This document shows positions 14,724 to 32,300 of a stretch of 35,331 nt of DNA, in pieces (positions within the stretch are counted from its first letter, which is position 1; each line of letters starts with the position of its first letter). The position numbers and the translations under genes are program-made. The notes below the pieces were generated by a model. That model worked only from the letters and a program-made list of their open reading frames with translations. It ran no database searches and had not been told where the DNA came from. The stretch is from a virus. The stretch is taken from the IMG/VR virus record IMGVR_UViG_3300025767_000068, positions 1 through 35,331 of that record. One strand, written 5' to 3'.

Positions 14724-17700
14724 TGTCAAGTTTAAACAATATTAACAACAACGCTTCGGTTGTAAACGTAGGTAGAACTACTCCAGTTACACCCGGCGCA
14801 CAACCTGCATCAAACAGTATTCCTGTTGTAGTTGCTACAGACCAAACAGCGATACCAGTCGTTGAACAAAACAAAATACAATCAGAAGTTGCACTTTCAC
14901 TACTAGGTATACCTAGATCAGAAGTTGCACTAGGTATATTTGCTGACGTTAACACATACGATGTTAACCCAAGTGAGTGGTCCAGTGTTCCAGAAGATTA
15001 TTCCGAAGTTGGAAGTTCAGCAACACAGTACTCAGGTGTTGGAGGTCCGCAAGCATGGGGTATTTTACACTTACCTGAAGAGTCAGGTGCACAAGTTACA
15101 GCACCAGCAGACGAAACAGCAGTACTTACAAGTAAGAGATTTTTTAGATATCAACCAGGACGTGTTTCAGCAGCTACATTTGGTATTAAGAGTTCGTTTG
15201 CTTCAGGCAACGTAGTAGGTGCAGGACAAAGAGCTGCAACAAGAAACCCAGATGTTAAAAAGTATGGTATCTTTGATAAATTTGACGGATACTATTGGGA
15301 AACAAGAGACACAGGACAAGGCGATCAGTTTGCTGTTGTAAGACGTACACAATCTATTATCAGAAAGAACCCTTTGCAATTTGGTAATAGTGCAGGACAG
15401 CAATTAGAAGATCACGCACTAGGTGGTAAAGCACCATCTATTGCTGAAAGTAAATTTAACCAGTATCCTACAGCAACAAAATACTTGACAGAAAACAAAT
15501 TTGATTTAATTGATAAGAGTGTAATTAGTAACACAGCAGTTAAATGTCAAAGAGACTTAGGTTACTTCTTAGAATCTGTTGGTACAGATATTACACTAGG
15601 TACAAACTATGGTTCAACATTCCAAGGTTTAGCAGAGTCTAACTCAAACGAATATCCGTTACCAGTAAGTGTTACTACAGCAATTGATAATTCAGAAATA
15701 CAAGTTAAAGCACTAGCAGGTGTAGATGCTACAGCAGACGCACTTGTTGACACATGGTACAACAATTTAAGAGCTGTTGCTGTTGACGCAGGTACAAGAG
15801 TTGATTATGCAAGTGCAACGCAAGCAGAGCAAATTGCTTTCCTAAAGGCTGTTACATTTACAAATCCAACTAGTGGCGGTTCAGCAAGTAGAGAAGCTGT
15901 TAAAGACCAACTAGTTGCAAACAGAGATTTTATTGCGGCAGAGATTAATGCATGGGTAACAGATAACTATCCAAGTGCAAGTCATAACACAAACAAATGT
16001 ACACGTGATGTATTGTTTGTTCTAAACGCTGTAGCATACGATGTACTATATGGCGGAAACAGTGCTACATATGACGCAGGTAGGTTCTTCTTTTACGATG
16101 GTTTTAGTAAGAGTGATCAAACAGCAGACTACATTACACAAACAGTAGCGGCATACGGACGTTTAGTTGCAATTATTGATGACATTGTTAAAAACGTAAC
16201 TATTACTAAAACAACTGGTAACAGTGAAACACAAAGCACAGGCAACGGTGTAGCGGCACAAGCAGAAGCTGATGCGGCTGTAGCGTTTGCAACAATTATT
16301 AGAGATGTTATTGACGAAGGCGATATACTATTAAGTTTACCAGTAACAAGAACATTGCCAGATACATCATGGGGTGCAGCTTCAGCTACAGCGGCACAGA
16401 CTGCTATTACAGCAGCTACAAAAACTATTGTAGAAACAGTAGCACCTGTAACATTTACAGGCGATGATTTAAAATGTAAGAGAGATTTAGAATTTGCACT
16501 AGATGCTTATATCAACGATTTACGTTGGGGCGGCAACGGTCACATTATAGCAAATGCGGCAACTTACGACACAGCAATACTAACAGATGCAGAGCGTGAG
16601 GGCGAAACACATTACTTCTTTAGAAATAAGTTACGTGAAACACTAGCAAGCATTAACGAAACAGGCGCCAGAACAAAAATAGGCGACCTTGCTAAGTTTC
16701 AAATACAAGCGGTTACAGCAAACGGTGCTACACCATATCCGGCACAGCCAGGACCAGATGGAACTACAGGAGCAATTACAGATGCACAGATTGCTTCTGC
16801 AACATACGGGCAACGTAGTAAAGTAGAAACAATCTTTAGTGTGTACGCATTGTATTACGGTTACCTAATAAGTCAAAGTTTAAATTATGATGCAGTAACA
16901 GAATTGCCAGAGGGTGCTGTTGAAGCAGACTTTGAAAGAGTACTTAAATTTAAATGTATTAGAGACGTTAAGTATGTAATGAATGGTTACGGCAGTGACT
17001 TACAGTATGGCGGCAACGCAGCTACAACATACAACGCATTTAAATACTACAGCGACGGCGCATTAAAAGTTTACTCACAAACAAGTGGAGGAGTTGTTGC
17101 AGAGATTGCTAGACACCAATTCTTAAAAGACCTGCTTACATCAAATAGTTTAGTTAATGTTGAAAGAACAGATTCACAAGTTGTACAAATTAAGAGTTTA
17201 ACAACAAGGTTTGCTTTAACATCAACACAAAGAAATAAACTAATTACACTAACAGATACAATTATTAATAACTTTACAACTGAATACAATGGGTCTGTTG
17301 ATTACGGATCAGCAGGACAGTTTGGTGACTTAGTAATTTTACGTGATGGGTTAATTATGGTACATGCAGGTGTATACGATCCTACACTACTTAAGAAGCG
17401 TGTTAAAACACCAGCACAAATTGACACAACAAATAACACATTGACACTTGCAGAAGGAAGTGTTATAATAGGACAGTATGTAAACTACTATGGTGATTGT
17501 CCAGAACTTACAGATGGTAAAACATACTTTGTAAGTGAAGTACAAGGTCCTAAGGGTAATACAATTACACTAATGGATCCTGCGGTTGCTGACTTTGATC
17601 AGTTTGATGTAACACCAAGTAACAACACACCAATTACACTTACAGGTGCAGGAACTAATCACTTTATTGAAACACCAGTACCGTTTATTCATCCACTAGA

Positions 17701-19462
17701 ATATGCAAAGTCGTTTGGACTTGCAGGTGTTGAAGAACGTTACGATGGCATGTTCCCATACATGTACACATCATCTGGTACGTTACCAGCAGATCCAGCA
17801 GACGTAATTATAGGATATGTTGATACAGCAATCGACACAAGTGTTGATGCGGCATCATTAAGAACACAAATAGATAACTTAAACTTCAAGTATAAAACTT
17901 GGGTAAGAGATCATGTTGATCCAACATACTATTCAGTATATGAATACAGAGTTGGTAGAACTAGATTCTCAGGAGATGCGTTAGACGGAAAAACACGTAA
18001 CAGTGTTTACAGTGATAACGTATTAGATAAAAAAGCAGGTGAACTATTCTTAGGCACAGGCGTGTCAGCACAGGAACAAACATCAGTTTGGGACATGGAC
18101 TTTAGTAAGGTGACCATGCTTAAAGTTGAATTTAGTTGGTATGGTGCTGTTGGTGCATTGTTCTTAGCATATGTTCCAGTAGACAATGGCGAAGCACGTT
18201 GGGTAAGAGTACACCATTTACGTTGTTCAAACCAGTTAAAGATATCTTCACTAGGTAATGCTACACTTCCAATTACGTATCTAGTATACGGTGGTGGTAG
18301 TGAAACACGCTTTGGTGTTCCAAATGCTAATAGGTTGCAAAACCCATATGGTAGTTACTCAGAAAGCCTTGTTAAGTATGGTGCTTCTTACTACATTGAT
18401 GGTGGTGACCGTGGTACAGTTAGATTGTTTAACCATAGTTCCGAAACACCTACAGACATTAGTGGTTCAAAGTACAAATTAGGTGTTACTAATACTAACG
18501 CTAATGACCCAGTTTCTCCGTACTTTACAGTAACTAACTTAGATCCTGATACAACAGGATTTGATGCACCAGCGGCAAGTACATACTACATGAACGCAAG
18601 GATAATTACAGGTAACTCACAAGACCAAAACGTAAAAGTTATTTGGGTAGATGGCAATGATTTATATCTTAATAAACCAGTAAGCCAAGTATCAACATTA
18701 AATGTAATTGTAGATAGACCAGCACTTGTATACGGATTAAAAACAAAAGACAACATTACATCAGGTAATGGCGATGATGTTAGAAACAGAGTACAGGTAT
18801 ATCCAACACGTTTAAGTGTAGGTAGTGATGGTAGCACTAACGCTAAAGTTACACTAATTAAAACACCTTTATTCCAAACAACATTAGGAACTACAGGTAA
18901 TTTTGCACTTAATGCAACTGTAGATATAAATCAACAATACTTACTATCTACAACAAACACAGATTATCTTTCACAAAATGGAGACTTTACTTACGGTTAC
19001 TTCCGTGCAAGTTTAAATGGCTCAGAAACACTTATAAGTGTATTAGGAAGATTAGAGAAAGCAAACGACAACTACTATTTTTATCCATCAGACATATACA
19101 ATGGTACATTAGAATTTGCTTCAGGCACAACATTCTTAAAAGAGGGTGTATTTGATCCAGACGGAACTGTACTTACTTCAAGTGAAACAACTTTTGAAAA
19201 AGAACGTTTAAGTTCAGTTGAAGTTGCACTAAGAGCGCAGACTCCAATACCTGGAACAGGTACTGAACTAGCAAGTTATTACGTTGCACCGGGTGCTGAA
19301 GAATTTGACTTAGCAACTTATTTCGACTATAACAAAGAGTATATAAGTTACCCACTTACAGATCAGCTAGAGACTCTATTCTTAGCAACATTTAGTAATA
19401 ATACTAATAGCAATACACCTTTAGTTTCGTTGAGTGCGAGCTTGACATGGGAGGAGCAATAA
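14723..19462 (+). CDS. Large virion protein with four internal 'C-x-RD...GGN' repeats, 1579 aa
   Basis: The protein is paralogous to the next gene: shared anchors are 'LLGIPRSEV' (59), 'RYQPGRVSAATFG' (142), 'KVTMLKVEFSWYGAVGA' (1129), 'YGASYYIDGGD' (1218) and 'FEKERLSS' (1491). Between 142 and 1129 it carries an insertion of four repeats starting 'CQRDLGYFLES' (272), 'CTRDVLFVLNA' (422), 'CKRDLEFALDA' (581) and 'CIRDVKYVMNG' (741), spaced 150-160 residues, each with 'D-[IVL]-x3-[GT]N'-type ends and often preceded by a helix-rich 'FIAAEINAW' segment. Thr/Ala/Asn-rich, no signal peptide. AAGGG precedes the start, which overlaps the previous stop. Probably a fibre or baseplate-periphery component; no enzyme motif seen. 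Confidence 0.82.
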   Translation: MSSLNNINNNASVVNVGRTTPVTPGAQPASNSIPVVVATDQTAIPVVEQNKIQSEVALSLLGIPRSEVALGIFADVNTYDVNPSEWSSVPEDYSEVGSSATQYSGVGGPQAWGILHLPEESGAQVTAPADETAVLTSKRFFRYQPGRVSAATFGIKSSFASGNVVGAGQRAATRNPDVKKYGIFDKFDGYYWETRDTGQGDQFAVVRRTQSIIRKNPLQFGNSAGQQLEDHALGGKAPSIAESKFNQYPTATKYLTENKFDLIDKSVISNTAVKCQRDLGYFLESVGTDITLGTNYGSTFQGLAESNSNEYPLPVSVTTAIDNSEIQVKALAGVDATADALVDTWYNNLRAVAVDAGTRVDYASATQAEQIAFLKAVTFTNPTSGGSASREAVKDQLVANRDFIAAEINAWVTDNYPSASHNTNKCTRDVLFVLNAVAYDVLYGGNSATYDAGRFFFYDGFSKSDQTADYITQTVAAYGRLVAIIDDIVKNVTITKTTGNSETQSTGNGVAAQAEADAAVAFATIIRDVIDEGDILLSLPVTRTLPDTSWGAASATAAQTAITAATKTIVETVAPVTFTGDDLKCKRDLEFALDAYINDLRWGGNGHIIANAATYDTAILTDAEREGETHYFFRNKLRETLASINETGARTKIGDLAKFQIQAVTANGATPYPAQPGPDGTTGAITDAQIASATYGQRSKVETIFSVYALYYGYLISQSLNYDAVTELPEGAVEADFERVLKFKCIRDVKYVMNGYGSDLQYGGNAATTYNAFKYYSDGALKVYSQTSGGVVAEIARHQFLKDLLTSNSLVNVERTDSQVVQIKSLTTRFALTSTQRNKLITLTDTIINNFTTEYNGSVDYGSAGQFGDLVILRDGLIMVHAGVYDPTLLKKRVKTPAQIDTTNNTLTLAEGSVIIGQYVNYYGDCPELTDGKTYFVSEVQGPKGNTITLMDPAVADFDQFDVTPSNNTPITLTGAGTNHFIETPVPFIHPLEYAKSFGLAGVEERYDGMFPYMYTSSGTLPADPADVIIGYVDTAIDTSVDAASLRTQIDNLNFKYKTWVRDHVDPTYYSVYEYRVGRTRFSGDALDGKTRNSVYSDNVLDKKAGELFLGTGVSAQEQTSVWDMDFSKVTMLKVEFSWYGAVGALFLAYVPVDNGEARWVRVHHLRCSNQLKISSLGNATLPITYLVYGGGSETRFGVPNANRLQNPYGSYSESLVKYGASYYIDGGDRGTVRLFNHSSETPTDISGSKYKLGVTNTNANDPVSPYFTVTNLDPDTTGFDAPAASTYYMNARIITGNSQDQNVKVIWVDGNDLYLNKPVSQVSTLNVIVDRPALVYGLKTKDNITSGNGDDVRNRVQVYPTRLSVGSDGSTNAKVTLIKTPLFQTTLGTTGNFALNATVDINQQYLLSTTNTDYLSQNGDFTYGYFRASLNGSETLISVLGRLEKANDNYYFYPSDIYNGTLEFASGTTFLKEGVFDPDGTVLTSSETTFEKERLSSVEVALRAQTPIPGTGTELASYYVAPGAEEFDLATYFDYNKEYISYPLTDQLETLFLATFSNNTNSNTPLVSLSASLTWEEQ
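14903..14916. repeat. 14-base perfect palindrome, copy 1
   Basis: CTAGGTATACCTAG is fully self-complementary and encodes the LGIPR part of the conserved 'LLGIPR' motif. An identical copy lies in the paralogous gene at 19727-19740. Confidence 0.85.
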
Positions 19463-19465
19463 TAA

Positions 19466-22400
19466 ATGCCTCAAATCAAAATAGGTTTCGACAGAATACC
19501 TATACCAACAGCAAAGAATTTTGTACCTCTTTATGACATTGTAAAAGGTGTTCCGCTTAGAGATTCAAATGGACAGATTATTGTTACGGAAGATGAAGGT
19601 CCGGTAGAAGCTCTTTCCAAAGCAGAAAACAGTACTAGTGTTGTTATAAACAATAGAGTAGTCGAAAACACACAACTAAACATTGTAGAACAGTTTGCTG
19701 AAACATCGCAAGTTAGTACAACACTACTAGGTATACCTAGAGCAGAAGTACAACTTAGTTTGTTCAGTGACGTAAGTACATATGGTGTTAATGAAGAAGA
19801 ATGGGAGTTCTACCAATACAATGGAGTATTTGGTAGACCAGCAGGTTGGTACAACAGACGCAATAGAACATTTGGTAATCATTTCTACACTAGACTAGTT
19901 GAAGAAACAAATGAGCAAGCACTTGTTGTTGAAAGTTTTCCAGTAGCATTTACTTTTCCTCCAGGGCCAAATTATACAAGCGGTGGATACAATCCTGCGG
20001 TATTTGCTAGATTCTTAGCATTTATTGATTTAGGTAACGACTTATATACAACATACGTTGGCAGTAATGAGATTTTTGCAAAAGAAAATTTCTTAGATCC
20101 AGCGTTATGTTTTACACAGGATGGCGATGTTGAATATCCAGATGATGAACAACTAGGATATGATAAGATTGAAAATTGGTGTCAAGCATGGATGAATATG
20201 CGTGATGGTCTTTTGCTAGACCCTAACACTAACACACCTATTAGATTTCCTACAGGATACGATGCAACAAACACAAGACCAGGTGCAAGTGATACAGCAA
20301 ACTACTTTGGGTTACTACAAAGTAAAAAAGCATACAGATATCAACCAGGACGTATTTCAGGATTTACATTTGGTTTTAGAGCAAGCCGAGATGAAGCAAG
20401 TATTGACAACATTATCGAATGGGGTATAGGTAATCCTACAGACGAATATGTTTTCCAAATAAGAGGTCCACAGTTTAATATTGTACGTAGAAGTACAGTT
20501 AGATTGCCTAACGAAGTATTACAACGTATGGGCTTCAACAATACATCACAACAAACTGTAACAAGTAGAGAACCATTTAACGAATCTGAATTTTCTGAGT
20601 TAGTAATTACAAGAGACTTTTTTAACGGAGATCCATTAGATGGTAATGGTAGATCAGGATACTTGTTAGATCCTACTAAAGTTACTATGTACAAAATTGA
20701 ATTTGGTTGGTACGGTGCTATTGGTGCTAAGTTTTATGCTTACATACCAACAGCCACAGGCGATGCACGTTGGGTGTTAATGCACACATTAACTATTGAA
20801 AACCAATTAGGCGAACCGTGTTTACAAGATCCATATTTTAAATTTAGATATCTACAAGATATTAGAAACACAAGTAGCATTAGAGAGCCACAATTCCTTT
20901 ACAAGTATGGTGCTTCATGTTATATTGATGGTGGCGACAATAGTGCAGGCAAATACTACTCATACACAAGTGACGACAAAGTAGTTAACAATGCAAGACA
21001 AACAAGTGTTGCAGGCATATATCCTAAACGTGAAATTAAAAACAGCGACGGTATTGGCAAGCCTAATAAGAAAAATGTTTATCCTGTAGATTTAAAAATA
21101 AACTGTGATCAACTTACTGAAGTACAAGTAGTTGAAATAGACGGATGTCCTGCATTTGGACATCACTATGCACCAAGTTTACACAGTAATACAAATGGTG
21201 TTACAAGAAGTATAAACATCAATGGTGCAGGCAACGAAATTACAACTAACCCGCAACCACAAGTTAACATAACTAATATTAGTCAAGCAAGTTGTGGTAT
21301 TGTAACTACAGATGTTGCACACGGATATTTTACAGGACAAAAAGTTACAATAGAAAATGTTGTAGGCATGACAGAAGTTAACCTACAAACATATTACATT
21401 GAAGTGTTAAGCGATACAGAATTTGCTTTATACAGCAATCCTGAATACGATGCAGAAGTAGATACAAGTGGCTTTGCTGCATATGTAAGTGGCGGCACAT
21501 CAGATGGTGATCCAATATTTAGAGTAAAAGACGACGATAGTAAACTTATTGTACCAGGCATTAATAGTTGCTATGCCGCAAGAACAAGCGAAAGTACAGC
21601 AAACATTGAACGTATTGGTTTTGACGCATTATATGAAAAGAGTTCTACAGGCACTATTGATACACAAGTTATTTTAAATGGACAGTTAGTTGACCGTAGT
21701 ACTGTAGATACTTCCGCTGTACGTTTTACAAGTTACTACGATTCTATTGCAGGTAGTACATATCCTATAACAGGTGACGGATTTGATTGTAACTTTTTAA
21801 ATCCAGTTGCTCAAGAAGGCACACAGTTTTGTGAATTTATTATTGGTGTAACAGAAAACAAACCTGTAATTGTTACACGTAATAATGCACTAGGTACTCC
21901 AATACCAGAAATTAAATTTTTACAAAGTAATGGTATTACAGAAGTAGAACCAGACTTAGATGATATATTATATGCTGAATTTACACACAGTAGTTTGTAC
22001 AGAGACAGAGACGGCTACGAAGAAAGAGAAGGCGATGCACCGCTTGGTATAAAATATGACATTGATTATAGATTACCTCGCCCTACAGGAACTGATAGCG
22101 GCACATGTTCAGGCATTAATGTGTCAATTGAAGAAAGATTAGCATTTACAGTTACGTATAGTTCTACTGATCCAGTAAGCGGAAGTCCGAGTGACGTTGT
22201 TATATTTGACAACGAACCAAGCGAACTAATAAATGGGTTTAACCTTGTTGGCGGTGAGTTTGGAGACGGAGATTCTCCAAGTGGTATTAGATTTACTAGC
22301 ACACTAAAAACATATATTGACAGTAACAACGATGAAAAGTATTATGCAGATATAGACGGTGCTCCTAGTAGTGCAGCATTTACTCTTAAATTAAGTCCTA

Positions 22401-22909
22401 TAAGAATTAAAGATAAAACGATTACAGGTGATCCGTTAAAAGGTGTTAACAAAGTACAAATATTCAGTTTCCAACCTAAGCCATTATATCTAGTTGTGTT
22501 TATGCGTGACAATGCTAAAATGAACAATGTAACTATTACAGAATATATCAATGGAACAACTAGAGCATTTTGTCCAGAGTGGGTAGTAAACAGCGGTATT
22601 GACGTTGTGTTCTCCGGAGGTGCAAGTTCAGGAGTACCTGCAGCTAATTACTTAGAGAAAGAAAGATTAGCAAGTACAAGTGTTGATGTACAAAACTCGC
22701 AACCATTGCGTCCAGGTAAACTAAAAGATACTTTATATGTTGCACCAAATAGAAATAATACTATAGCATTAGATAGTGTGTACGGACCAGATAGGACAAC
22801 TATTACTCCAGGAATATTAAATACAACAGCAACATTTATTACAGCAAGAAGTTTAGAAAATAATGATGTTAACTTAGTAAGTGCAAGTGTGACTACGAAG
22901 GAAGATTAA
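19466..22909 (+). CDS. Large virion protein, paralogue of the preceding gene, 1147 aa
   Basis: It begins 'MPQIKIGFDRIPIPTAKNF' and contains the family anchors 'LLGIPRAEV' (87), 'RYQPGRISGFTFG' (291), 'KVTMYKIEFGWYGAIGA' (405), 'YGASCYIDGGD' (480) and 'LEKERLAS' (1062). It lacks the 'C-x-RD' repeat block of its neighbour. Near residues 615-680 is a segment resembling the 'AHGL-tG-V-i-GV-GMTEVN...Y.V..' module (E1 FCCH-like) found repeated in many phage surface proteins: here 'VAHGYFTGQKVTIENVVGMT'. A strong GGGAGGAG ribosome site lies upstream and the gene is four bases from its neighbour. It is likely to pair with its paralogue in the same tail structure; function beyond virion protein is not shown. 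Confidence 0.82.
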   Translation: MPQIKIGFDRIPIPTAKNFVPLYDIVKGVPLRDSNGQIIVTEDEGPVEALSKAENSTSVVINNRVVENTQLNIVEQFAETSQVSTTLLGIPRAEVQLSLFSDVSTYGVNEEEWEFYQYNGVFGRPAGWYNRRNRTFGNHFYTRLVEETNEQALVVESFPVAFTFPPGPNYTSGGYNPAVFARFLAFIDLGNDLYTTYVGSNEIFAKENFLDPALCFTQDGDVEYPDDEQLGYDKIENWCQAWMNMRDGLLLDPNTNTPIRFPTGYDATNTRPGASDTANYFGLLQSKKAYRYQPGRISGFTFGFRASRDEASIDNIIEWGIGNPTDEYVFQIRGPQFNIVRRSTVRLPNEVLQRMGFNNTSQQTVTSREPFNESEFSELVITRDFFNGDPLDGNGRSGYLLDPTKVTMYKIEFGWYGAIGAKFYAYIPTATGDARWVLMHTLTIENQLGEPCLQDPYFKFRYLQDIRNTSSIREPQFLYKYGASCYIDGGDNSAGKYYSYTSDDKVVNNARQTSVAGIYPKREIKNSDGIGKPNKKNVYPVDLKINCDQLTEVQVVEIDGCPAFGHHYAPSLHSNTNGVTRSININGAGNEITTNPQPQVNITNISQASCGIVTTDVAHGYFTGQKVTIENVVGMTEVNLQTYYIEVLSDTEFALYSNPEYDAEVDTSGFAAYVSGGTSDGDPIFRVKDDDSKLIVPGINSCYAARTSESTANIERIGFDALYEKSSTGTIDTQVILNGQLVDRSTVDTSAVRFTSYYDSIAGSTYPITGDGFDCNFLNPVAQEGTQFCEFIIGVTENKPVIVTRNNALGTPIPEIKFLQSNGITEVEPDLDDILYAEFTHSSLYRDRDGYEEREGDAPLGIKYDIDYRLPRPTGTDSGTCSGINVSIEERLAFTVTYSSTDPVSGSPSDVVIFDNEPSELINGFNLVGGEFGDGDSPSGIRFTSTLKTYIDSNNDEKYYADIDGAPSSAAFTLKLSPIRIKDKTITGDPLKGVNKVQIFSFQPKPLYLVVFMRDNAKMNNVTITEYINGTTRAFCPEWVVNSGIDVVFSGGASSGVPAANYLEKERLASTSVDVQNSQPLRPGKLKDTLYVAPNRNNTIALDSVYGPDRTTITPGILNTTATFITARSLENNDVNLVSASVTTKED
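19727..19740. repeat. 14-base perfect palindrome, copy 2
   Basis: Identical to the palindrome at 14903-14916, in the same codon phase of the homologous motif. Identity extends over 18 bases of codons for LLGIPR. Confidence 0.85.
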
Positions 22910-25293
22910 TGGCAAATATAAAATTTGGTCTAAACGTAAACAGGAGTCTTGCAGACGTTGCAGATCCTGGAGCGGCCTTAGCAAACATAGGGATTAATAT
23001 AAATGACCTTGATATTATTAGGGGAGCAGCTGGTGACTTGGGTATTACAGCAGATGATGTAAAAGCACTAAGTGGACTAGGTGTACCTGTACAAAACTAT
23101 CTAGTTAAACTATATCAAGATACATTACAATATTCAAGTATTATTGACGAAACAGCAGGCACAGGTTCGTCACTAAAAGGTAACTTAGTTGTTAACGGCG
23201 TACTAGGTGCTGGAGCAATTAAATATCAATACATTGACGATGATAATACTACACTTAAATTTGCTGACATTAGTACAAGTCGTGTTAGTAGTTGGAGTAG
23301 TACAGATAGTCCTGCTACAGATACTAGCCCAATTTTTTACGGTAGTCAAATTGAAGTAGACGGACCAATTGAAACTAACACCCTTGAAATATTAAAGCCT
23401 GCAGACTCAGTACGTTTTAGAAGTTCAGAAGTACCAACACACAAGATACAAGCAACCATTGGCGGACAAACTGTATACTTGTATGCTATGAAAGGCATAC
23501 CATTAGTGTTTGACGGGTTCTTTAGAAACTTGGACAGTGACCTTAGACTAGTAACAAGTGGTGCTGTAAGTTGGCGTGTTGTAAACAAACAATTTGATTA
23601 CTTAACAAAAGAATATGAAAACGTAGGCGGCTCTAATACAACACGTAGTTTCTTAAGATATAGAGACACAGGAGCGGCTTCAAAAGCTGTAGAAATATAT
23701 CATAATCCAAACAACATTCTTACACTACCATTATCAGGAATAGGTTTAGCAGAACTTCCATCAGCTGCATTAGAAAACTGTCAAAATTTATATGTTAACA
23801 ACAACATTATAAAAACGTTCCCGGACTTTACACAGTTTGTTCCTAATGTTAGATTATTAGATGTTAGAGAGAATAACTTTACATTAGGTGACGATCCTAC
23901 TTTACGTAAATTTAATTCAAGTGTGTTAGCACGTATACCTACAACAGTTAGAGAAATAAGATTTGGTAATACATTTAATGGAAGTATTACAGCAGACTTA
24001 ACAACACTTACAAACTTACTAACACTAAACTTAAATGGTCACAACAGAGGTGGATCATTTAACTACTATGATCAAGACGGTGAAGATCCTACAGGCTCAT
24101 GTCCTGAAGTTTCCAACACATGTCAAAACTATTTTATCTACAGAAACAGTTTTAATGCTGTTCCACAAAGTGTAAAAGATTTACCAGACCTTAGACAGAT
24201 TAATTTGTATAGCAATACTATTACTGACGATAACATGCAATTTGCAAGTAGTGTTATCAACTATATAAACATAGGCGGTAATCCGGGTATTAACATTCCT
24301 AACTGTGCAAATAAAAATTCACTACAGGATTTTTATGCTCATTACAATAGTGCAGCTAATGTACCTGCAGATAGAAACTTATTTACTACAAGCTCAGGAG
24401 CATATAAGTTTGCAAACTGTGGATCTCTAAGACTTATATACTGTTACGGTAGTGCATATACAGGACCAATACCAAAGTTTGCTGGAAACTCACAATTATA
24501 CTATTTCCAAGGACAATACACAGCACTACGTGGTGGACGTTCAGACACAGAGCAAGATTATGTATTATACGATGATGTATTTGACGATTGTGCAGATGCT
24601 ATGCGTTACTTCCAAGTAGCAAGTAGTAGTTTGTTAAATGCGCCTATGCACCCAGATTGTTTTGAAAAGCCAACAGGTATGATTGGTATTGTGTTTAGAA
24701 GTTTCAATGCAGGAGTAAGTGGTGCGTTCCCAAGTTTAAATACAATGCAGAACTTGCGTTATATTGTAATGCTACAAAATAACTTTACAGGGCCATTACC
24801 AAACTTTTTTAATAACCCTAACTTATATTACTGTCATTTATATGGTAACTCATTTAGTGGTGCTATACCTGTGATACAAAGCAATGCACTAATGTACTTC
24901 TATGTGCATAGTAATCAGTTAACATCATTCGGCGGATTAGAAACACCTAATCTAAGAAGATTGTTTATAAGTTATAATCTAATTACTGGTGCTATTCCTG
25001 ATATGAATAATCTTACATTGTGTTATGACTTTTATATGAATAACAATAACTTTACTGACTACACAGCAGGCGCACTAGTAGCATGTAGATCGTTATACAG
25101 AATTGATATTAGTAACAATCCAAACTTACCAGCGGGTGCGGTAAATAATATTGTAGCAGACCTTGTTGCTAACTACGAAAATAATCCACGTGGTGGTATT
25201 AGTGTAAACTTAGCAAACACATCAACACCTACAGGTGATGCTGTAGAACAAATTGAGTTCTTAAGGTCCAAAGGTTGGAACATGAGGTTATAA
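22909..25293 (+). CDS. Fibre protein with leucine-rich-repeat domain (putative adhesin), 794 aa
   Basis: Residues 1-175 resemble a fibre attachment module ('FGLNVNRSLADVADPGAALANIGI'; 'LKGNLVVNGVLGAGAI'). At about 178 a cap-like 'HKIQATIGGQTVYLYA' motif matches the C-terminal ends of the next two fibre genes. From about 268 to 790 the protein turns into irregular leucine-rich repeats: 'LPLSGIGLAELPSAAL', 'LLDVRENNFTLG', 'LLTLNLNGHNRGG', 'MLQNNFTGPLPNFF', 'HLYGNSFSGAIPV', 'YVHSNQLTSFGG', 'FISYNLITGAIPDM', 'DISNNPNLPAGA'. The recurring N-x-F/L-x-G-x-[IL]-P spacing is like plant-type or bacterial surface LRRs, with Tyr/Phe often replacing Leu. LRRs are protein-binding solenoids, so a receptor-binding role is likely (inference). 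AAGGA precedes the start; the gene overlaps the previous stop by one base. No signal peptide or cell-wall anchor is seen. Confidence 0.83.
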   Translation: MANIKFGLNVNRSLADVADPGAALANIGININDLDIIRGAAGDLGITADDVKALSGLGVPVQNYLVKLYQDTLQYSSIIDETAGTGSSLKGNLVVNGVLGAGAIKYQYIDDDNTTLKFADISTSRVSSWSSTDSPATDTSPIFYGSQIEVDGPIETNTLEILKPADSVRFRSSEVPTHKIQATIGGQTVYLYAMKGIPLVFDGFFRNLDSDLRLVTSGAVSWRVVNKQFDYLTKEYENVGGSNTTRSFLRYRDTGAASKAVEIYHNPNNILTLPLSGIGLAELPSAALENCQNLYVNNNIIKTFPDFTQFVPNVRLLDVRENNFTLGDDPTLRKFNSSVLARIPTTVREIRFGNTFNGSITADLTTLTNLLTLNLNGHNRGGSFNYYDQDGEDPTGSCPEVSNTCQNYFIYRNSFNAVPQSVKDLPDLRQINLYSNTITDDNMQFASSVINYINIGGNPGINIPNCANKNSLQDFYAHYNSAANVPADRNLFTTSSGAYKFANCGSLRLIYCYGSAYTGPIPKFAGNSQLYYFQGQYTALRGGRSDTEQDYVLYDDVFDDCADAMRYFQVASSSLLNAPMHPDCFEKPTGMIGIVFRSFNAGVSGAFPSLNTMQNLRYIVMLQNNFTGPLPNFFNNPNLYYCHLYGNSFSGAIPVIQSNALMYFYVHSNQLTSFGGLETPNLRRLFISYNLITGAIPDMNNLTLCYDFYMNNNNFTDYTAGALVACRSLYRIDISNNPNLPAGAVNNIVADLVANYENNPRGGISVNLANTSTPTGDAVEQIEFLRSKGWNMRL

Positions 25294-25294
25294 A

Positions 25295-26305
25295 ATGGCA
25301 ACATCAGCAGTACAAGGATTTTTAAAATCCGCAAACTTATTAGAAAATACGCAGGACAGACAGTTACTTAATAACTTAGGTGAAGCACCTATTGCTGATG
25401 ATATTAGTTTGTTCATTAACAATAACCAAAACGTATCAAGACTTACTATTGCAGATGCTGAGTATAATTTTATTACAGGACTTGTAACAATAGTAAACAA
25501 TACAGCAGAACAGCAAGCCGCAAGAAGTGGTGTTTTTACAAACGGTGACCCTGTTAAGATACTGTATGTAAATGAGACTGTATTACAAGATGATTTATTT
25601 GTTACACAAAGTAATGGTGAAACAACATTTGGCTTTGCAACTGATGTAGAAGGTGATAGTCAATTTACATTTGATCCTCCTGCAGAAGGGTTTATTGTAC
25701 AACGTTCTGATGCTGTAGTATTAAATAACTTAACATTCTTAGGTGCTGTAGAAGATACAGCAGGATTTAGTAGTGGGCTTGGTGCAGGAGCATCAGGTGG
25801 AGAGCCTGAAGGTGCATCTGGTATCGATACTGATGACACATATGCTAACCAATTTTTAGAAATTTATCAATACTTAGACATTGCAAAATATCAAGCAGAC
25901 AAAAAGTTTGTAAGTGATAAAAATGTTGCAACAGATGATGACTTTAGAATGGAAGGCTCATTTAGTATTAACGACCCTTCTGATATGATTATTACTGAAG
26001 GTGTAAATTTAAACAGCCCGGGTTTATATATTACAAACCCTGCAAGTCCATTAACAAACATTCAACGTATTAGAGCATTTAGTGATACATCAAATCCTTG
26101 GGAAGTTGTAGGCACAGGTGTTAACACAAAATTAACAACACAAGCTGCTTCAGCACAAACTGGCGATTTAAAACTTAACAATGGTATAATAATTGACGGC
26201 GTGTCTCCAATCACAGAAAGTGGAAACGTAAACAACGTTTCTTTCACTCATAAAGCAAAAGTTAAAATAGACGGTATTGATTACTTTTTATGTTTAACTA
26301 GTTGA
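25295..26305 (+). CDS. Fibre-like virion protein, 336 aa
   Basis: The N-terminus 'GFLKSANLLENTQDRQLLNNLG' resembles the attachment modules of neighbouring fibre genes (a helix with N-L-x-D/E then N-N-L-G). The middle is Asp/Asn/Gly-rich beta sequence with a Gly/Ala-rich linker near residues 161-176 ('SSGLGAGASGGEPEGASG'). A helical stretch ('QFLEIYQYLDIAKYQADKKF') follows at about 186. The C-terminus 'THKAKVKIDGIDYFLCL' is the HK...Y cap seen inside the LRR protein, so this gene looks like the plain form of that architecture. GAGG precedes the start. Its last 12 bases overlap the end of the inverted PA14 gene, and both encode Thr-Ser-stop there. Confidence 0.78.
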   Translation: MATSAVQGFLKSANLLENTQDRQLLNNLGEAPIADDISLFINNNQNVSRLTIADAEYNFITGLVTIVNNTAEQQAARSGVFTNGDPVKILYVNETVLQDDLFVTQSNGETTFGFATDVEGDSQFTFDPPAEGFIVQRSDAVVLNNLTFLGAVEDTAGFSSGLGAGASGGEPEGASGIDTDDTYANQFLEIYQYLDIAKYQADKKFVSDKNVATDDDFRMEGSFSINDPSDMIITEGVNLNSPGLYITNPASPLTNIQRIRAFSDTSNPWEVVGTGVNTKLTTQAASAQTGDLKLNNGIIIDGVSPITESGNVNNVSFTHKAKVKIDGIDYFLCLTS

Positions 26306-28564
26306 TGCTAGTACTTTATACACTGTTCCATTAAACGTAATAGGTATTGTTCTATCATACGCTAATGCGTCTCCTAAACTAAGCTCTGTTGTCGTTGTAT
26401 TTTCTGCTACAAAGTCTCTTACTTTAAGTATAGCACTTGCGTTGGTCATTTGAAGCCCAACAGTAGCACCTGTGCCGTCTGTTGTTCTAAGACCATCTAA
26501 GGTACCCACAAATGGCGGTGCTGTGTTTAATGGTATAACACATGCTTCTTTGTCTTGAGTTGTGTTTGAAGGACAAATAACAACGGTAGTACCTGCAACC
26601 ATATCGTCACCTGCTTGTACAGGCTTGTTTAATGTTACTGTATTGTTAATAGGATCAATAGCAATAATTTTAGTTAAAGTGCTAGTGTCAGTAGGATCAA
26701 TTTCTTCTGTGTAAGGTCTACTTTGAAATACATTGTTTAATCCAAAGCCGTCTACATTGTTTAGTGTAAGTACTGTATCACCAGGTACCGCTGTAACAGC
26801 AATTTCTTTACCTACAGTTCCTATACAAAAATTATTAAGACTGTTGTTTTTTAAACCTTTATCACTATAAAAATATACTTGTTCTAATCCACTTAACCCT
26901 AATGCAATGTTTGTAGTGAATTCTCTAATATTTACAATTTCTGTAATTCGTATGTAATCTGTGCCAGCAGGATTATTTTCTGCTACAACAACTGTACCTA
27001 CTTTAAGATCTGCTGTGTCGTCTACAGTAACACTTGTACCAGATGACGTGCCTGCTTGTACATCTAAAAATCCTCTGTGATCCATAAACTTAACAGGAAC
27101 TGTTGCATCACCTGTTGCTGTAGAATTAACAATGATTATATTGTTACGTGATAAATCTGTAACTGTTGTGCCTTTAGTATAAGCCGGTGTAATAACTTGG
27201 TTACCAATTTCAATGTTGTCCGTATACGGGCTAGTTGATGTTGTACTTAATATGTTACTATCTTGTTCAAACGATACTGTATATTCTGCCCGTAACGCAT
27301 TGACAAATCTTCTTGGAGGACTGTATGTTACAGTTAGTGGACTTACACTAAGCCATCTTGCATACTGTGTACTAAAGTTAACATCTTGTGGTCCTATTTC
27401 ACCACCGCCTGTTAAAAGTCTATTATCATAGAATCCTTTAAAACTATCTTCTTCAAACTCATCTGGCACTTGTTGATACAAATACCAATATGGCCAGTCG
27501 CCACTATCTTTAATATTTGTAGATAAGTTACAATCTATATACTTGTTAAAGTAATTCTTAGTAGGATCACTATACCAATATGTTAAACGTATTTCAATAG
27601 GAACGTATTTTTCTAAATCAGATTCAGTATGACTAAATCTAAATGAATCACTACCAATTTTGTTTTTAATACTGTAAGTAAGTTTTGCACCATTAGGAAC
27701 TGTTATTGCTTGGTTAAGAGTAATAGTTGTATTACTAGTGCCGTCTACAAAAAGTCCTGAACTTATTTCTGCTGAAAGTATTGCTACGCCATTTTCATCT
27801 TCTGCGGCAATAACTTCATCACCTATTATTACAGTACGGGCATCAATTGCATCAACAGTAACACTTAGTTCATTATTCATTGCACTTAAATGTTCTATTT
27901 GGCGATCTTCTGCAAATGTATTTTGTACAACTTGAAGGGCACCAAAACGGTCTGCTACTTCAAACATTACTAAACCAGTAGTATCAAAACTAAATGTACT
28001 TGGACCACTAGCATCTGGCACATAAAATCCTTGCCATTGTATTAGTCCGTTTGCTCCACCTAGTGTGTCATCTAGTTTATTACTAAATTCAAATACACCG
28101 TTGTTCCAAAACTGTTTTGTAACTTGAGGTGTTTCGCCTGTTTGTATTATATTAGCACCTGTAGTATTTTTACTTAGACTAGTACTAATTTGATCAGTAT
28201 CATAAAATTTTGCTATAAGGCCATCTCCTCCATTAAAAAATGGTGGATCATTAGTTGTAGCAATAATAGTGTCTAATTGATTTTTAACAGTAATAACTGG
28301 AGAAGCAATTCTATCAACTAATTCACCATCTTCTAATACTGTATTTTTAACAGCAAGTCCTGCCATTAAACCAATATCTCTATTAGTAACTGTACTATTA
28401 CTAATACCTTTAATAGCGTCTAAATCACCGCCTGTAAATACTTTGTTATCAGAACCAACTACAAGGTTGTTTAGAACGTTGTTGAGTGCCTGATCTTTTG
28501 ATGTAAGATCTGCTAGATTTAAATCTCTACGTAGTCCTATGTTCTTAAATGAAGGTCTTGCCAT
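26294..28564 (-). CDS. PA14-like domain fibre/adhesin protein on the opposite strand, 756 aa
   Basis: This is the only large minus-strand gene. Residues 1-75 ('FKNIGLRRDLNLADL...NNVLNNLV') match the attachment module of the plus-strand fibre genes. Residues about 111-340 look like a PA14 domain, a beta-barrel carbohydrate- or protein-binding fold: 'GLIAKFYDT', 'FWNNGVFEFSN', 'IQWQGFYVPDASGPSTFSFD', 'MFEVADRFG' and then 'YVPIEIRLTYWYSD' at about 315. Later parts are Thr/Asn-rich beta repeats, and the C-terminus 'RTIPITFNGTVYKVLAS' is the HK...Y-like cap. A strong AGGGAG ribosome site and a late box in minus orientation precede the start. It probably encodes another receptor-binding fibre. The inversion relative to its block is discussed under findings. 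Confidence 0.8.
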   Translation of the reverse strand: MARPSFKNIGLRRDLNLADLTSKDQALNNVLNNLVVGSDNKVFTGGDLDAIKGISNSTVTNRDIGLMAGLAVKNTVLEDGELVDRIASPVITVKNQLDTIIATTNDPPFFNGGDGLIAKFYDTDQISTSLSKNTTGANIIQTGETPQVTKQFWNNGVFEFSNKLDDTLGGANGLIQWQGFYVPDASGPSTFSFDTTGLVMFEVADRFGALQVVQNTFAEDRQIEHLSAMNNELSVTVDAIDARTVIIGDEVIAAEDENGVAILSAEISSGLFVDGTSNTTITLNQAITVPNGAKLTYSIKNKIGSDSFRFSHTESDLEKYVPIEIRLTYWYSDPTKNYFNKYIDCNLSTNIKDSGDWPYWYLYQQVPDEFEEDSFKGFYDNRLLTGGGEIGPQDVNFSTQYARWLSVSPLTVTYSPPRRFVNALRAEYTVSFEQDSNILSTTSTSPYTDNIEIGNQVITPAYTKGTTVTDLSRNNIIIVNSTATGDATVPVKFMDHRGFLDVQAGTSSGTSVTVDDTADLKVGTVVVAENNPAGTDYIRITEIVNIREFTTNIALGLSGLEQVYFYSDKGLKNNSLNNFCIGTVGKEIAVTAVPGDTVLTLNNVDGFGLNNVFQSRPYTEEIDPTDTSTLTKIIAIDPINNTVTLNKPVQAGDDMVAGTTVVICPSNTTQDKEACVIPLNTAPPFVGTLDGLRTTDGTGATVGLQMTNASAILKVRDFVAENTTTTELSLGDALAYDRTIPITFNGTVYKVLASTS

Positions 28565-28581
28565 ATAATACTCCCTGTACA

Positions 28582-28605
28582 GTATTTATCAGCTTTGATA
28601 AATAC
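28582..28605. promoter_or_regulatory. Palindromic divergent late promoter pair
   Basis: GTATTTATC (28582-28590) and GATAAATAC (28597-28605) are perfect inverted arms with a six-base spacer, so each strand reads GATAAATA. The minus copy starts 26 bases before the PA14 gene start at 28564; the plus copy starts 32 bases before the ATG at 28629. One element therefore serves both genes. Confidence 0.65.
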
Positions 28606-28628
28606 AATATATAATAGGAAACTAACAA

Positions 28629-29318
28629 ATGGCTGTAGAACTAGTAAACATAGGTAGAATTGCAAACGATGGTACAGGTGATGACCTACGTGAAGCATTT
28701 ATCAAAATCAATAGAAGTTTAGAAGATCTAGACTTGCGTATTGACGATAAAACTGAAGGTGTCAACTTAGGCACAGGTGCAGGCGTCTTTAAACAACGCA
28801 CAGGATACAATTTAGAATACAAAAGTCTTGTAGGAAATAACGATATTGTTGTTACAAACAACCCTACAGAGATTGCACTTAGTATAGATACAACCCTAGG
28901 GGCAAGACCTATTGTTGCTGATACTGGTACAGTAACTATACCAGCAAGAGGAACACTTAGATTACAAGGTTCAGGCGGAATTACAACTACAGCAGATGAC
29001 GCAAACGGATCAGTAACTATTGCAGGTAATGCTACTTTAGAATCAGACACTAGTCCGTCATTATCAGCAAACCTTAATGCTAATGGATTTGCTATTACCA
29101 ACGTAGGCACACTTATAGGTAGTAATGTTCAAAGTCTTGTGTATGATGTTGATATCCGCACTATAAACGATTTATATATTAACTTAGACTTTGGCGAATT
29201 TGTAGAGAATACAAATAACTTCGTTGACTTCTTTAAGGGATTAGTTAATGCTGATTACGGCACTCTAACTGGTCCGACATTGATAAACACGGACGACGGG
29301 CTATTACCAACATTGTAA
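28629..29318 (+). CDS. NDGTGD-motif virion protein, 229 aa
   Basis: The N-terminus 'VNIGRIANDGTGDDLREAF' repeats the attachment motif of the giant protein at 2244, followed by a helix ('INRSLEDLDLRIDDK') suitable for trimer formation. The middle contains 'LRLQGSGGITTTADDANGSV' and 'LESDTSPSLSANLNANGFAI', the latter matching 'LESDPSPTLGGPLNAAGVAI' in the giant. The C-terminus is acidic and aromatic ('NNFVDFFKGLV'). AGGA precedes the start. It is probably a tail or baseplate adaptor sharing a docking site with the giant fibre; position in the virion is inferred. Confidence 0.78.
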   Translation: MAVELVNIGRIANDGTGDDLREAFIKINRSLEDLDLRIDDKTEGVNLGTGAGVFKQRTGYNLEYKSLVGNNDIVVTNNPTEIALSIDTTLGARPIVADTGTVTIPARGTLRLQGSGGITTTADDANGSVTIAGNATLESDTSPSLSANLNANGFAITNVGTLIGSNVQSLVYDVDIRTINDLYINLDFGEFVENTNNFVDFFKGLVNADYGTLTGPTLINTDDGLLPTL

Positions 29319-29323
29319 ATTAC

Positions 29324-29331
29324 GATAAATA
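29324..29331 (+). promoter_or_regulatory. Late promoter box (GATAAATA)
   Basis: GATAAATA starts 27 bases before the ATG at 29351 in a 32-base gap between two virion genes. Confidence 0.65.
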
Positions 29332-29350
29332 GCTATGTAAGGATTTTTAT

Positions 29351-32300
29351 ATGGCAAGTATCTGGACACAACCAAACAACTACAAATTAAGAACACTTGT
29401 AGAAAGAGTGAAACTTGAGACAGGAGATTTTATTTTACCTGTGGACTCAAGTGCGACTATAACATTATTAGCAGGTGACTTACCTCCTGGACTAAGAATT
29501 GTCGGTACCGAAATAACTGGTACACCTTTTGAAGTTGAAATAGTAAAAGTATTTAAATTTGTTCTTAGAGCAAAAGTAGGAACTACTGTAGAAGATAGAA
29601 CTTTTACAATAGATGTTACAGGACCAGATGAACCGTTTTGGATTACACAACCAGGACTTTTGCCAATTGGCGCAAACGAAAATTTATTTGTTTTAGACAA
29701 TCAAATTATTGACTATCAGTTCTTAGCAATTGATGCTGATACAGCTGCAGGTCAAACATTAGAATACTATATTGTTCCTGGGGAGGGCACCTTACCGCCA
29801 GGACTTACACTAACAAACACAGGTAGAATACAAGGTGTTGTAGAACCTTTGCTTGCATTAGATAAAGAAGCAGCTAAAGGCGGATTTGACACAAGTCCAT
29901 ATGATGCTTATCCTAGCGATTTTTCAATTAAAGCAGATAGAGGTTTTGATAGTTATTTTTATGACAATGTGCGTTACGATACGCAATCAGATCCACAAAT
30001 ACCAAAGAAACTAAATCGTTACTATGAATTTAAAGTAACTATAAATGACGGTGTAACAGAGAATCCACCTAAAAGAAAATTTAAGATATATGTTGTAGGT
30101 GACGATTTCCTAAGAGCAGACAACACTATCATGAAAGTTTCAAATGGTGTGTTTAAAGCAGACAACACAAACATACGTCAACCTAAATGGTTAACACCTG
30201 CAGACCTTGGATACAAAAAATCAAATAATAATGCTACTGTTTACTTAGATGTTTATACTAGTGATACATTACAAGGTAACTTGTTATACAGTTTAGACGA
30301 TGTTAACAACGACAATAGCGAAAGTATTTTACCACCAGGATTAAAACTAGATACTCTTAGTGGAGAACTAACTGGTCCTATTCCTTATCAGCCACAAAGT
30401 TTTAAAGACTACAAATTTACTGTTCGTGCAACACGTTACACAAACGACATAGATTATGCTGTAGTTACAGGCACATTTTACGAAGATACATTATCAGGCA
30501 AACGATCATTTAAAGTATACAAACTTCCTCTTAATGTACAAGACGGAATAACACTTAATGACGGTATTGATGACCTAAATGATTTAAAAGATCAAAACAT
30601 TACATTAAATGGCAGACCTTACAAAGTAGAGTCAGTAGATGGTTCAGATGACGACTTCGATATAATCACACTCACTGAAACACTACGACCATTCTTAAGT
30701 TTTACTCTGTCACAAGACAGTCAAGCAAACAGTCAAAGTATATTTGTTGAAAAACTAAACAACTTTGAAAGACAACAATGGAAAGATAAAAAACTTGTTT
30801 ACGATAACCAAAGTAGTACACCAGAAACTTACACAATACAAAGTGTATATGGTTACAAGCGTTGGCAGATCGCAAGTGCGACAGGCGATATTTCTATCAA
30901 CTTTGAAGCTGGTGGCACAACGGCATTACCGTTTGGTCAAAACGAAACGCTATCTCAGAGTGTGATAAGAATATTCGAAGGTACAGATTTACCTGTTTTT
31001 GTAGACGCGGGCGCGACAGCAGGAAGTATAACTTTCTGGGCTCCAGATAATGCACTTACAAAAGAAGCAAGAATTAAGACTATCTTTACAGGTAGTGATT
31101 TAGTTTATACATTACTAGATGGTAATAAAGATCTAGTATATTTTGACAAACCATTAGAACCAGGCAGAACTTATATTACAGGACAAACTGTTAGTCTTGC
31201 ATTATATGGAGATGGATTCTTTGAGAAAGAATTAATTACATATGCAAATGCTGATGTAAACAATCCTAGTACACCTAAAACATTTACTATTAGAATACTA
31301 GGTGAAGTAGACAGTGAGATTGAATGGATTACGCCTGCAGACTTAGGAAGCATTACAGCAAACTTTAACAGTACAAAGCGTGTTACAGCAAAAACAAACG
31401 TACCTGATACTAGACTAATATATACTATTGTGTCAGGACGCCTGCCAAACGGGCTTAGATTAGCTTACACAGGCGAAATAATAGGTAAAGTAACACAGTT
31501 TGGTACACTAGAAAATTTAGGACTAACAACATTCGATAATGCTGACTTTAGTTTAGACGGTGGCACAACATCAATAGATAGATCATATACTGTTAAAATT
31601 AAAGCAGAAGATAGATTTGGTTACAGTGCTATTGAAAGAGACTTTGTAATAGATGTAATTGACCAAGACGATACCCTTTACAGTAATTTGTATATTAGGC
31701 CAATGTTAGAGCCTACAATTAGAAAAGAGTTTAAACGTTTTGTAAGTAATCCAGATATATTTCCAACTACATCAATATATAGAGCAAGCGATCCTAACTT
31801 TGGAATACAAACTAAAGTTAATATGTTAGCATATGCCGGTATTGAAACTAAAAATATTGATGAGTATGTAGCAGCTACAGCAAAGAATCATAAACGTAGA
31901 AATTATAAAATAGGTGATGTAAAAACAGCCATTGCAAAAGAACCAGGTAGTAATGATATTGTATACGAAGTTGTATACTTAGAAATTATTGATCCTCGTG
32001 ACAGCAAAAAAGGCAAAGTTGCAAATAACTTTATAGCACACCCGCAACCAGGAATAACAGCAGACAGTGTAGAGTACGAAGTTATTGATGATACAACAGC
32101 ACAAGACAGTGGTTATGATGTTGCAAAAGTCGACGGACGTTTTAGAGATATAGACGTTACACTTGATCAAGGCGATGGGTTTAGCGTTGGTCTGCGTACA
32201 GGTGATGTAATACAAGACGTTGATAATGATGATATTGATGTTACACTTAGAGATGGTGTAACAGAAGTAAATATTGATGTTGATATAAGTGACTCAGAAC

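Follow-up and report, generated by a model that had tools for sequence, protein, structure and literature searches.

The window considered here is a stretch of viral DNA of 35,331 nucleotides (positions 1 to 35,331 of IMG/VR record IMGVR_UViG_3300025767_000068), and its plus-strand gene at 22909-25293 encodes a protein in which a large predicted leucine-rich-repeat (LRR) solenoid forms the outer part of what is probably a component of the virus particle. The open reading frame (ORF) runs uninterrupted from an ATG at 22909 to a stop at 25293, specifies 794 amino acids and resembles the surrounding DNA in its guanine-plus-cytosine (GC) content. Pfam, AlphaFold and fold matches together point to an LRR protein, a putative adhesin of fibre type, whose parts are all encoded on the plus strand. 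The N-terminal module (residues 1-175, 22909-23433) consists of helices followed by the family motif DISTSR.S.W...YG, contains invariant alignment columns, and bears out the fibre-type N-terminus that an earlier first-pass annotation of the window had proposed. Residues 176-275 (23434-23733) comprise a hairpin (THKI...YLYAMKGIP) and a beta-rich stretch, with strands at 179-274 and the family consensus YAMKGIP..F.GFFRN; the hairpin motif, HKIQATIGGQTVYLYA, begins at residue 178, near which that annotation had placed a cap motif, and the beta-rich stretch (approximately 179-275) is a separate element between the hairpin and the LRR repeats. The solenoid itself (residues ~285-741, 23761-25131, about 18 repeats) is supported by Pfam, motif counts, AlphaFold and fold searches, and it is followed by a C-terminal cap (residues 742-794, 25132-25290) made up of a helix, final strands and an LRSKGW end, in which G789 and W790 are invariant or nearly so across the family.

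The assignment of the repeats to the LRR class rests on several kinds of evidence. The Pfam LRR_4 model matches the protein at E 4.5e-12 and 46.2 bits, its cut-off being 27, and LRR_8 (23.5) and LRR_1 (12) score under their own cut-offs. The nearest solved relatives by sequence are the ectodomains of plant LRR receptors, that of FLS2 matching at 6e-20 in phmmer. In residues 263-794 one LRR regular expression occurs 6 times compared to a mean of 0.8 in shuffled sequences (a count reached in 0 of 2000 shuffles); for a looser expression the figures are 7 and 1.6 (reached in 1 of 2000), and for a plant-type motif they are 3 and 0.006 (0 of 2000). In residues 1-262 LRR motifs are no commoner than in shuffles. 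The first-pass annotation was right to see LRR repeats, but the strict N-x-F-x-G-x-[IL]-P spacing that it ascribed to them is found only at 624 and 647, with one variant at 690.

An AlphaFold model built from 41 sequences has a mean predicted local distance difference test (pLDDT) score of 82.5, and 499 of the 794 residues score at least 90, nearly all of them, by block means, past residue 200; the block holding the hairpin and beta stretch scores 68-73 up to that residue and 86-93 thereafter. Strands recur at spacings of 21-35 residues from 293 to 733, the count of about 18 repeats having been made by reading. When this predicted model was searched against the PDB with Foldseek, the top matches were LRR ectodomains (E 3e-11 for BRI1), nearly all of the 50 matches listed were LRR proteins, as judged from titles or general knowledge, and the best VIA alignment reached Z 29.5 over 499 residues at 4.4 A. 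The structure prediction and fold search that had been suggested as a check thus give, for a predicted model, a parallel-strand solenoid of the LRR type and neither a beta-helix nor disorder. A second model, of the sister protein L072, has a good solenoid together with a poor N-module and C-terminal insert. In the viral library BFVD the top fold match is H6WFW9 of cyanophage S-TIM5, named 'Virion structural protein and packaging' (2.6e-17; TM-score 0.53 over the query, but a root-mean-square deviation of 24.9 A), and the LRR proteins of giant viruses rank below it.

By length and name, H6WFW9 is gp118 of S-TIM5 (YP_007006107.1), a phage whose host, according to its record, is Synechococcus WH8102; the counterpart in S-TIM54 is UYE97282.1. 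S-TIM5 was found only through profiles and fold, not by tblastn. A model made without S-TIM sequences detects gp118 at 2.2e-36 and the S-TIM54 counterpart at 2.4e-39 in a search of these two sequences, and a 50-row profile, which contains four distant members bridging to S-TIM5, detects them in whole records at 1.8e-72 and 4.1e-69, with no match in Atu_ph07, Phosso, Mosig, S-CAM1 or S-RIM2. The 41-row alignment by itself aligns to gp118 in hhalign at 5.1e-19 over 757 columns, with approximately 22% identity. The two proteins are colinear over almost their entire length, across N-module, neck and LRR, which places the window protein in the gp118 family, and gene order is conserved as well, with gp120, gp119 and gp118 corresponding to 14723-19462, 19466-22909 and 22909-25293, so that in both phages the LRR protein follows a gp119-type structural protein; the counterpart of gp116 is weak (probability 88) and that of gp117 unconvincing (probability 19). 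Above the Pfam cut-offs, LRR_1 is detected in gp118 and LRR_4 and LRR_1 in the S-TIM54 counterpart. Unlike the window protein, these two are 1193 and 1217 amino acids long, with more degenerate repeats. The annotation of gp118 is 'virion structural protein and packaging', and the records of S-TIM5 and S-TIM54 make no mention of LRRs.

Close relatives of the LRR protein occur at 15 loci, at 14 of which they align with it over the full length and without gaps at 87-100% identity, and there are 10 distinct sequences among them if the window protein is counted in. A search with the upstream gene (19466-22909) retained 77 loci out of 113 relatives; 69 of these extend for 1 kb or more beyond that gene, and in 64 of the 69 it is followed by an LRR protein homologue (E <1e-6). 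Four of the other five loci (L094, L098, L099 and L100) have in its place an S-TIM5-type protein, matched, in a search of these four sequences, by gp118 in phmmer at 1e-48 to 5e-80 and by the family model at 1e-7 to 1e-16; these proteins have no LRR match above cut-off, and their repeats are therefore degenerate or absent. At the fifth, L086, the upstream match extends to the contig end. A profile-guided scan yielded 132 relatives in 153 pattern hits, of which 80 were kept, and a scan of 84,980 species genomes, made with two short peptide patterns only, yielded two relatives, both on contigs of metagenome-assembled genomes (MAGs). The family model matches an ORF on each of the 82 contigs, some of these ORFs being truncated at contig ends. 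The two MAG contigs (L197 and L198; Cellulomonadaceae TMED98 and Opitutales), which bear the fibre gene, are perhaps phage contigs binned with bacteria.

Among 50 diverse members, LRR_4 and LRR_8 each match 46 (E up to 0.01), and the PHROG families 21719 and 6688, both without a function label, match 17 and 30. Relatives extend down to 28% identity, and uncut non-redundant members range from 788 to 1641 amino acids (L079 is entered with only 610, as its first 36 residues are encoded in a different frame), so that the window protein is near the minimal form of the family. The sister proteins of 1043-1641 amino acids are enlarged by insertions, located at loops of the solenoid (after window positions ~361, 420, 493 and 546) and in the C-terminal cap (after 775); many of the inserts are glycine-rich by eye, and several of those in L072 (residues ~798-1092), L088, L085 and L077 appear to carry a GGSGY..GD-like motif. 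Searches of 50,697 phage records by tblastn returned no match for the window protein or L093 and no family member for L088 or L080; L080 matched Listeria phages at E 0.09 or worse, and L088 gave one short match, to gp7 of P-HM1 (1e-3), a stretch of which part of L088 resembles. The family is a conserved and old one, in which cyanobacterial viruses share, and not a one-off graft.

The concave face of the solenoid, whose exposed positions were assigned from the repeat register of the predicted model, is distinctive in both composition and evolution. In the window protein tyrosine occupies 18 of 72 exposed concave positions, and of the 298 remaining solenoid positions outside the core it occupies 10 (Fisher 6e-8); this signal is weakened when the register is shifted. 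Over 41 members the aromatic fraction of the concave face averages 0.28 compared to 0.10 at the remaining non-core positions and is the higher of the two in 39, and the tyrosine excess is small or absent in L072, L075, L081, L084 and L091. Across clades the concave face has the highest mean entropy (2.24, compared to 2.03 for the rest, p 0.049, and 1.33 for the core). Within the window clade it varies least, at 7 of 72 positions compared to 93 of 298 for the rest (p 1e-4) and 19 of 90 for the core, a register shift of +4 being nearly as low.

Of 15 pairs of sequences chosen by the analyst for the comparison of concave and remaining positions, seven differ at p <0.05, four with a faster concave face and three with a slower one. 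The faster pairs are L075/L084 (23 of 71 versus 28 of 284, p 1e-5), L072/L091 (19 of 71 versus 29 of 287, p 7e-4), L055/L069 (p 0.017) and L046/L049 (p 0.016), and the slower ones include L034/L042 (1 of 72 versus 70 of 297, p 1e-6); after Bonferroni correction four pairs survive, the fast L075/L084 and L072/L091 and the slow L034/L042 and L028/L031. In a control in which the register was shifted, the faster pairs gave their extreme value at the true register, with the exception of L046/L049, for which shifts of +3 and +5 give an equal or slightly higher value. Outside the window clade there are eight close pairs whose solenoids differ by less than 20%; concave positions change more than the rest in six of these, about equally in L060/L064 and far less in L034/L042. 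A surface that is tyrosine-rich, nearly frozen within one clade and yet fast in several sister pairs is what would be expected of a receptor-binding surface, and this double pattern appears to be more readily explained by a role in specificity than by a contact with a scaffold. As for dedicated diversification by a diversity-generating retroelement, 11 records, of which two belong to the window clade and ten come from metagenomes and may be incomplete, contain no RVT_1 match, and positions 19000-30000 of the window show only short imperfect repeats.

The distances between LRR parts closely follow those between the upstream proteins (Mantel r = 0.95, 43 loci, 0 of 2000 permutations), and the upstream protein is present in 11 of 13 records, being missing from Atu_ph07 and Phosso. 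The DNA polymerase of the window clade (G004, G005) is 48-54% identical, in pieces, to those of these two phages and only 28-31% identical to those of four sister contigs, two of which (G010 and G011) bear psbA, with no match in the psbA carriers G016, G017 and S-TIM5. The gp6-like wedge protein of G005 is likewise approximately 36-37% identical to those of Atu_ph07 and Phosso, and it matches one short stretch in G010, with no match in the other sisters or in the own-clade fragment G004. Photosystem reaction-centre genes are found in 5 of 11 records (G010, G011, G016, G017 and S-TIM5). As to the host of the window clade, no psbA-type match was obtained in two long window-clade records, which may be fragments, and no hli-type match in 11 records, all possibly fragments; four records did give an hli-type match, only one of them above the Pfam cut-off.

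Because the polymerase and gp6 of the window clade resemble those of rhizobial jumbo phages that do not have the cassette, and psbA-bearing contigs do have it, the simplest reading is that a whole multi-gene cassette was likely transferred between two phage backbones. Alternatively, the rhizobial phages may have lost the cassette, the polymerase may have been replaced, or fragmentary records may hide genes. Acquisition by transfer, which the first-pass annotation had offered as a possibility, is likely for the cassette and is not supported for the LRR as a recently added domain. There is also a hint of local recombination within the gene, in that in L011 and L013, of the window clade, the LRR part is 94% identical to that of the window and the N-module 88-89%. 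In G005 (L021:2072-16318) there is, in addition, a run of minus-strand ORFs with cysteine-rich and Rossmann-like starts, read by eye, which are possibly radical-SAM or surface-sugar genes.

The neighbours of the gene are in part of structural type. The upstream protein (19466-22909, plus strand, 1147 amino acids) is a homologue of S-TIM5 gp119 (3.6e-79) and matches phrog_1645 at 1.8e-36; its residues 612-678 match Pfam E1_FCCH with 35.1 bits against a cut-off of 29.5. A second structural protein (14723-19462, plus strand, 1579 amino acids) is a homologue of gp120 (2.7e-136) and matches PHROGs families of both head/packaging and tail fibre. The downstream protein (25295-26305, plus strand, 336 amino acids) terminates in FTHKAKVKIDGIDYFLCLTS, a hairpin akin to that at residue 178 of the LRR protein, just as had been claimed of the next gene. 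This hairpin lies within the last 45 residues in 36 of 45 genes located 3' of family fibre genes; in the remaining nine it is slightly further in (L088), takes the variant form SFKL...INGE (L078, L080 and L090), or is absent (L034, L079, L092, L093 and L097, some of which may run into the contig end).

A single hhalign comparison of the fibre N-module profile with that of the downstream family gives E 7.7e-5 at a probability of only 62, and the N-module of the LRR protein aligns with the N-terminus of a convergent protein (26294-28564, minus strand, 756 amino acids) at 2.4e-4 and a probability of 44. This convergent protein has the relative place and orientation of S-TIM5 gp116, to which its profile aligns at 3.2e-6 with the probability given above, and hmmsearch finds no match between the two. 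The gene at 28629 encodes an N-terminus of gp9/gp10 type that is below the Pfam cut-off, and the LRR protein itself matches no T4-fibre Pfam or PHROG family. Elsewhere in the window, a protein of 2985 amino acids (2244-11201) has a segment, ~1210-2079, that resembles tail fibre proteins of cyanophages and of the Pelagibacter phage Mosig, and a protein of 1119 amino acids (29351-32710) has putative immunoglobulin-like (He_PIG) domains and is partly related to a protein of Atu_ph07 with a protease annotation (28.5% over 23%).

The product of the gene at 22909-25293 is probably a myovirus virion adhesin, the LRR concave face of which would bind a molecule of the host surface. This interpretation is based on the predicted LRR fold, the conserved synteny, the congruent inheritance, the virion annotation of gp118 and the uneven rate at which the concave face evolves, and tail association is suggested by the tail-fibre PHROG matches of the 14723 gene and by the gp9/gp10-type N-terminus of the 28629 gene; virion presence, tail location, exposure and receptor binding are all deduced from sequence comparison and a predicted model. 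In the proposed mechanism the N-module would dock the adhesin in the fibre or baseplate apparatus beside the neighbours inherited with it, a neck would be formed by the hairpin and beta stretch, and the solenoid would point outward and bind the host-surface molecule through its tyrosine- and asparagine-rich concave face, for which a glycan ligand would fit as well as a protein receptor. Recognition would shift by concave substitutions on a vertically inherited scaffold rather than by swapping of tips, and in the longer sisters it may also be altered by extra beta-type segments at the loops and the C-terminal cap. Of the earlier adhesin claim, the joining of an LRR solenoid to a fibre-type N-terminus is therefore retained, and the adhesin role is the best reading.

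Several results weigh against this interpretation. PHROGs places the family of the upstream protein, phrog_1645, under head and packaging, and a tail location for the LRR protein is itself a deduction. The AlphaFold model is not confident for the N-module, residues 1-160 of which mostly score below 60, as might be expected if the module folds only in an oligomer. Two of the 41 members have no concave aromatic excess, 8 of the 15 pairs show no significant difference between concave and remaining positions, and the ratio of nonsynonymous to synonymous substitution (dN/dS) on the concave face never exceeds 1 in the 11 of 15 pairs for which it is computable (dS is saturated in four). Strong purifying selection acts on the entire protein, which, unlike a typical hypervariable tip, shows within-clade variability no higher than that of its neighbours.

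The alternative that survives best, though it is rather unlikely, is that the solenoid serves the virion as an arm or clamp, with the concave face gripping a second virion protein and not the host. Co-inheritance with an upstream structural gene, the purifying selection, the frozen concave face of the window clade and the head and packaging label are all consistent with such a role, but concave changes at approximately 2-3 times the rate of the rest in four close pairs would not be expected of an internal contact unless the partner co-varies, and the concave face is also the most divergent class across clades. It is improbable that the protein is instead an adhesin for mucus, particles or grazers that keeps the phage near its hosts: LRRs bind many ligands, and a Vibrio phage LRR in a tail module is discussed in a coral context in the text of PMC10945359, but concave divergence varies by phage clade and is not uniform. 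The claim that a standard fibre module recently gained an LRR payload unusual for its phage, perhaps of eukaryotic or bacterial origin, is largely refuted and very improbable, since the neighbouring proteins that end at the same hairpin and the closeness to plant ectodomains (which may mirror the number of solved plant LRRs) are outweighed by homologues in nearly all syntenic loci with room for one and in the cultured phages S-TIM5 and S-TIM54, LRR matches in most of the diverse members, the depth of the family, its co-evolution with the upstream gene, purifying selection, the similar GC content and the near absence of relatives from the species genomes scanned with two short peptide patterns; an ancient fusion is possible.

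The solenoid fold is shared with plant and bacterial LRR ectodomains (BRI1/BRL, FLS2, PXY and HAESA; Leptospira LIC12759; Listeria InlF/InlJ), but identity to these is 12-20%, and the phage protein has no receptor kinase or surface anchor and carries its LRR on a fibre-type N-module. Among phages, ORF287 of Vibrio phage pir03 is annotated as a BspA-type LRR protein (PMC7765460), and Vibrio phage P. lipares has in its tail module an LRR ORF that is the most diverse protein among strains and whose LRR call has an hhpred probability of 10% (PMC10945359); a BFVD entry of Siphoviridae sp. ctJLl6 with an LRR annotation is a weak fold match to the window protein (1.7e-3). The likeness of these three to the window protein is one of annotation or fold. 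Some phage LRRs have likely been listed already, since Matsushima 2021, cited in PMC10945359, covers the LRRs of dsDNA viruses. In the open-licence literature searched, no account was found of a family of LRR fibres in these phages, and as far as that literature shows the kind of adhesin described here is new, with a relative that is sequenced and cultured.

The recognition parts of phage receptor-binding proteins are usually trimeric fibre tips or beta-helix tailspikes, mostly trimeric beta structures. The window protein resembles the modular receptor-binding proteins in its combination of an N-terminal anchor with a recognition domain, but an LRR solenoid would replace the usual recognition part, and change would proceed by substitution and insertion rather than by swapping. 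It is proposed, tentatively and with somewhat less than even confidence in the whole, that the family is an unnamed class of receptor-binding protein in which an LRR solenoid presents a tyrosine-rich concave recognition face, encoded in a cassette that passed between the backbones of cyanophages and of rhizobial-type jumbo myoviruses, with host recognition retuned by concave changes on a conserved scaffold. If correct, this would add a recognition scaffold conserved across cyanophages and their jumbo relatives, with host-range residues that can be read from sequence, and the cultured homologue in S-TIM5 makes the adhesin reading directly testable. A somewhat similar use of an LRR face for recognition is made by the variable lymphocyte receptors of lampreys.

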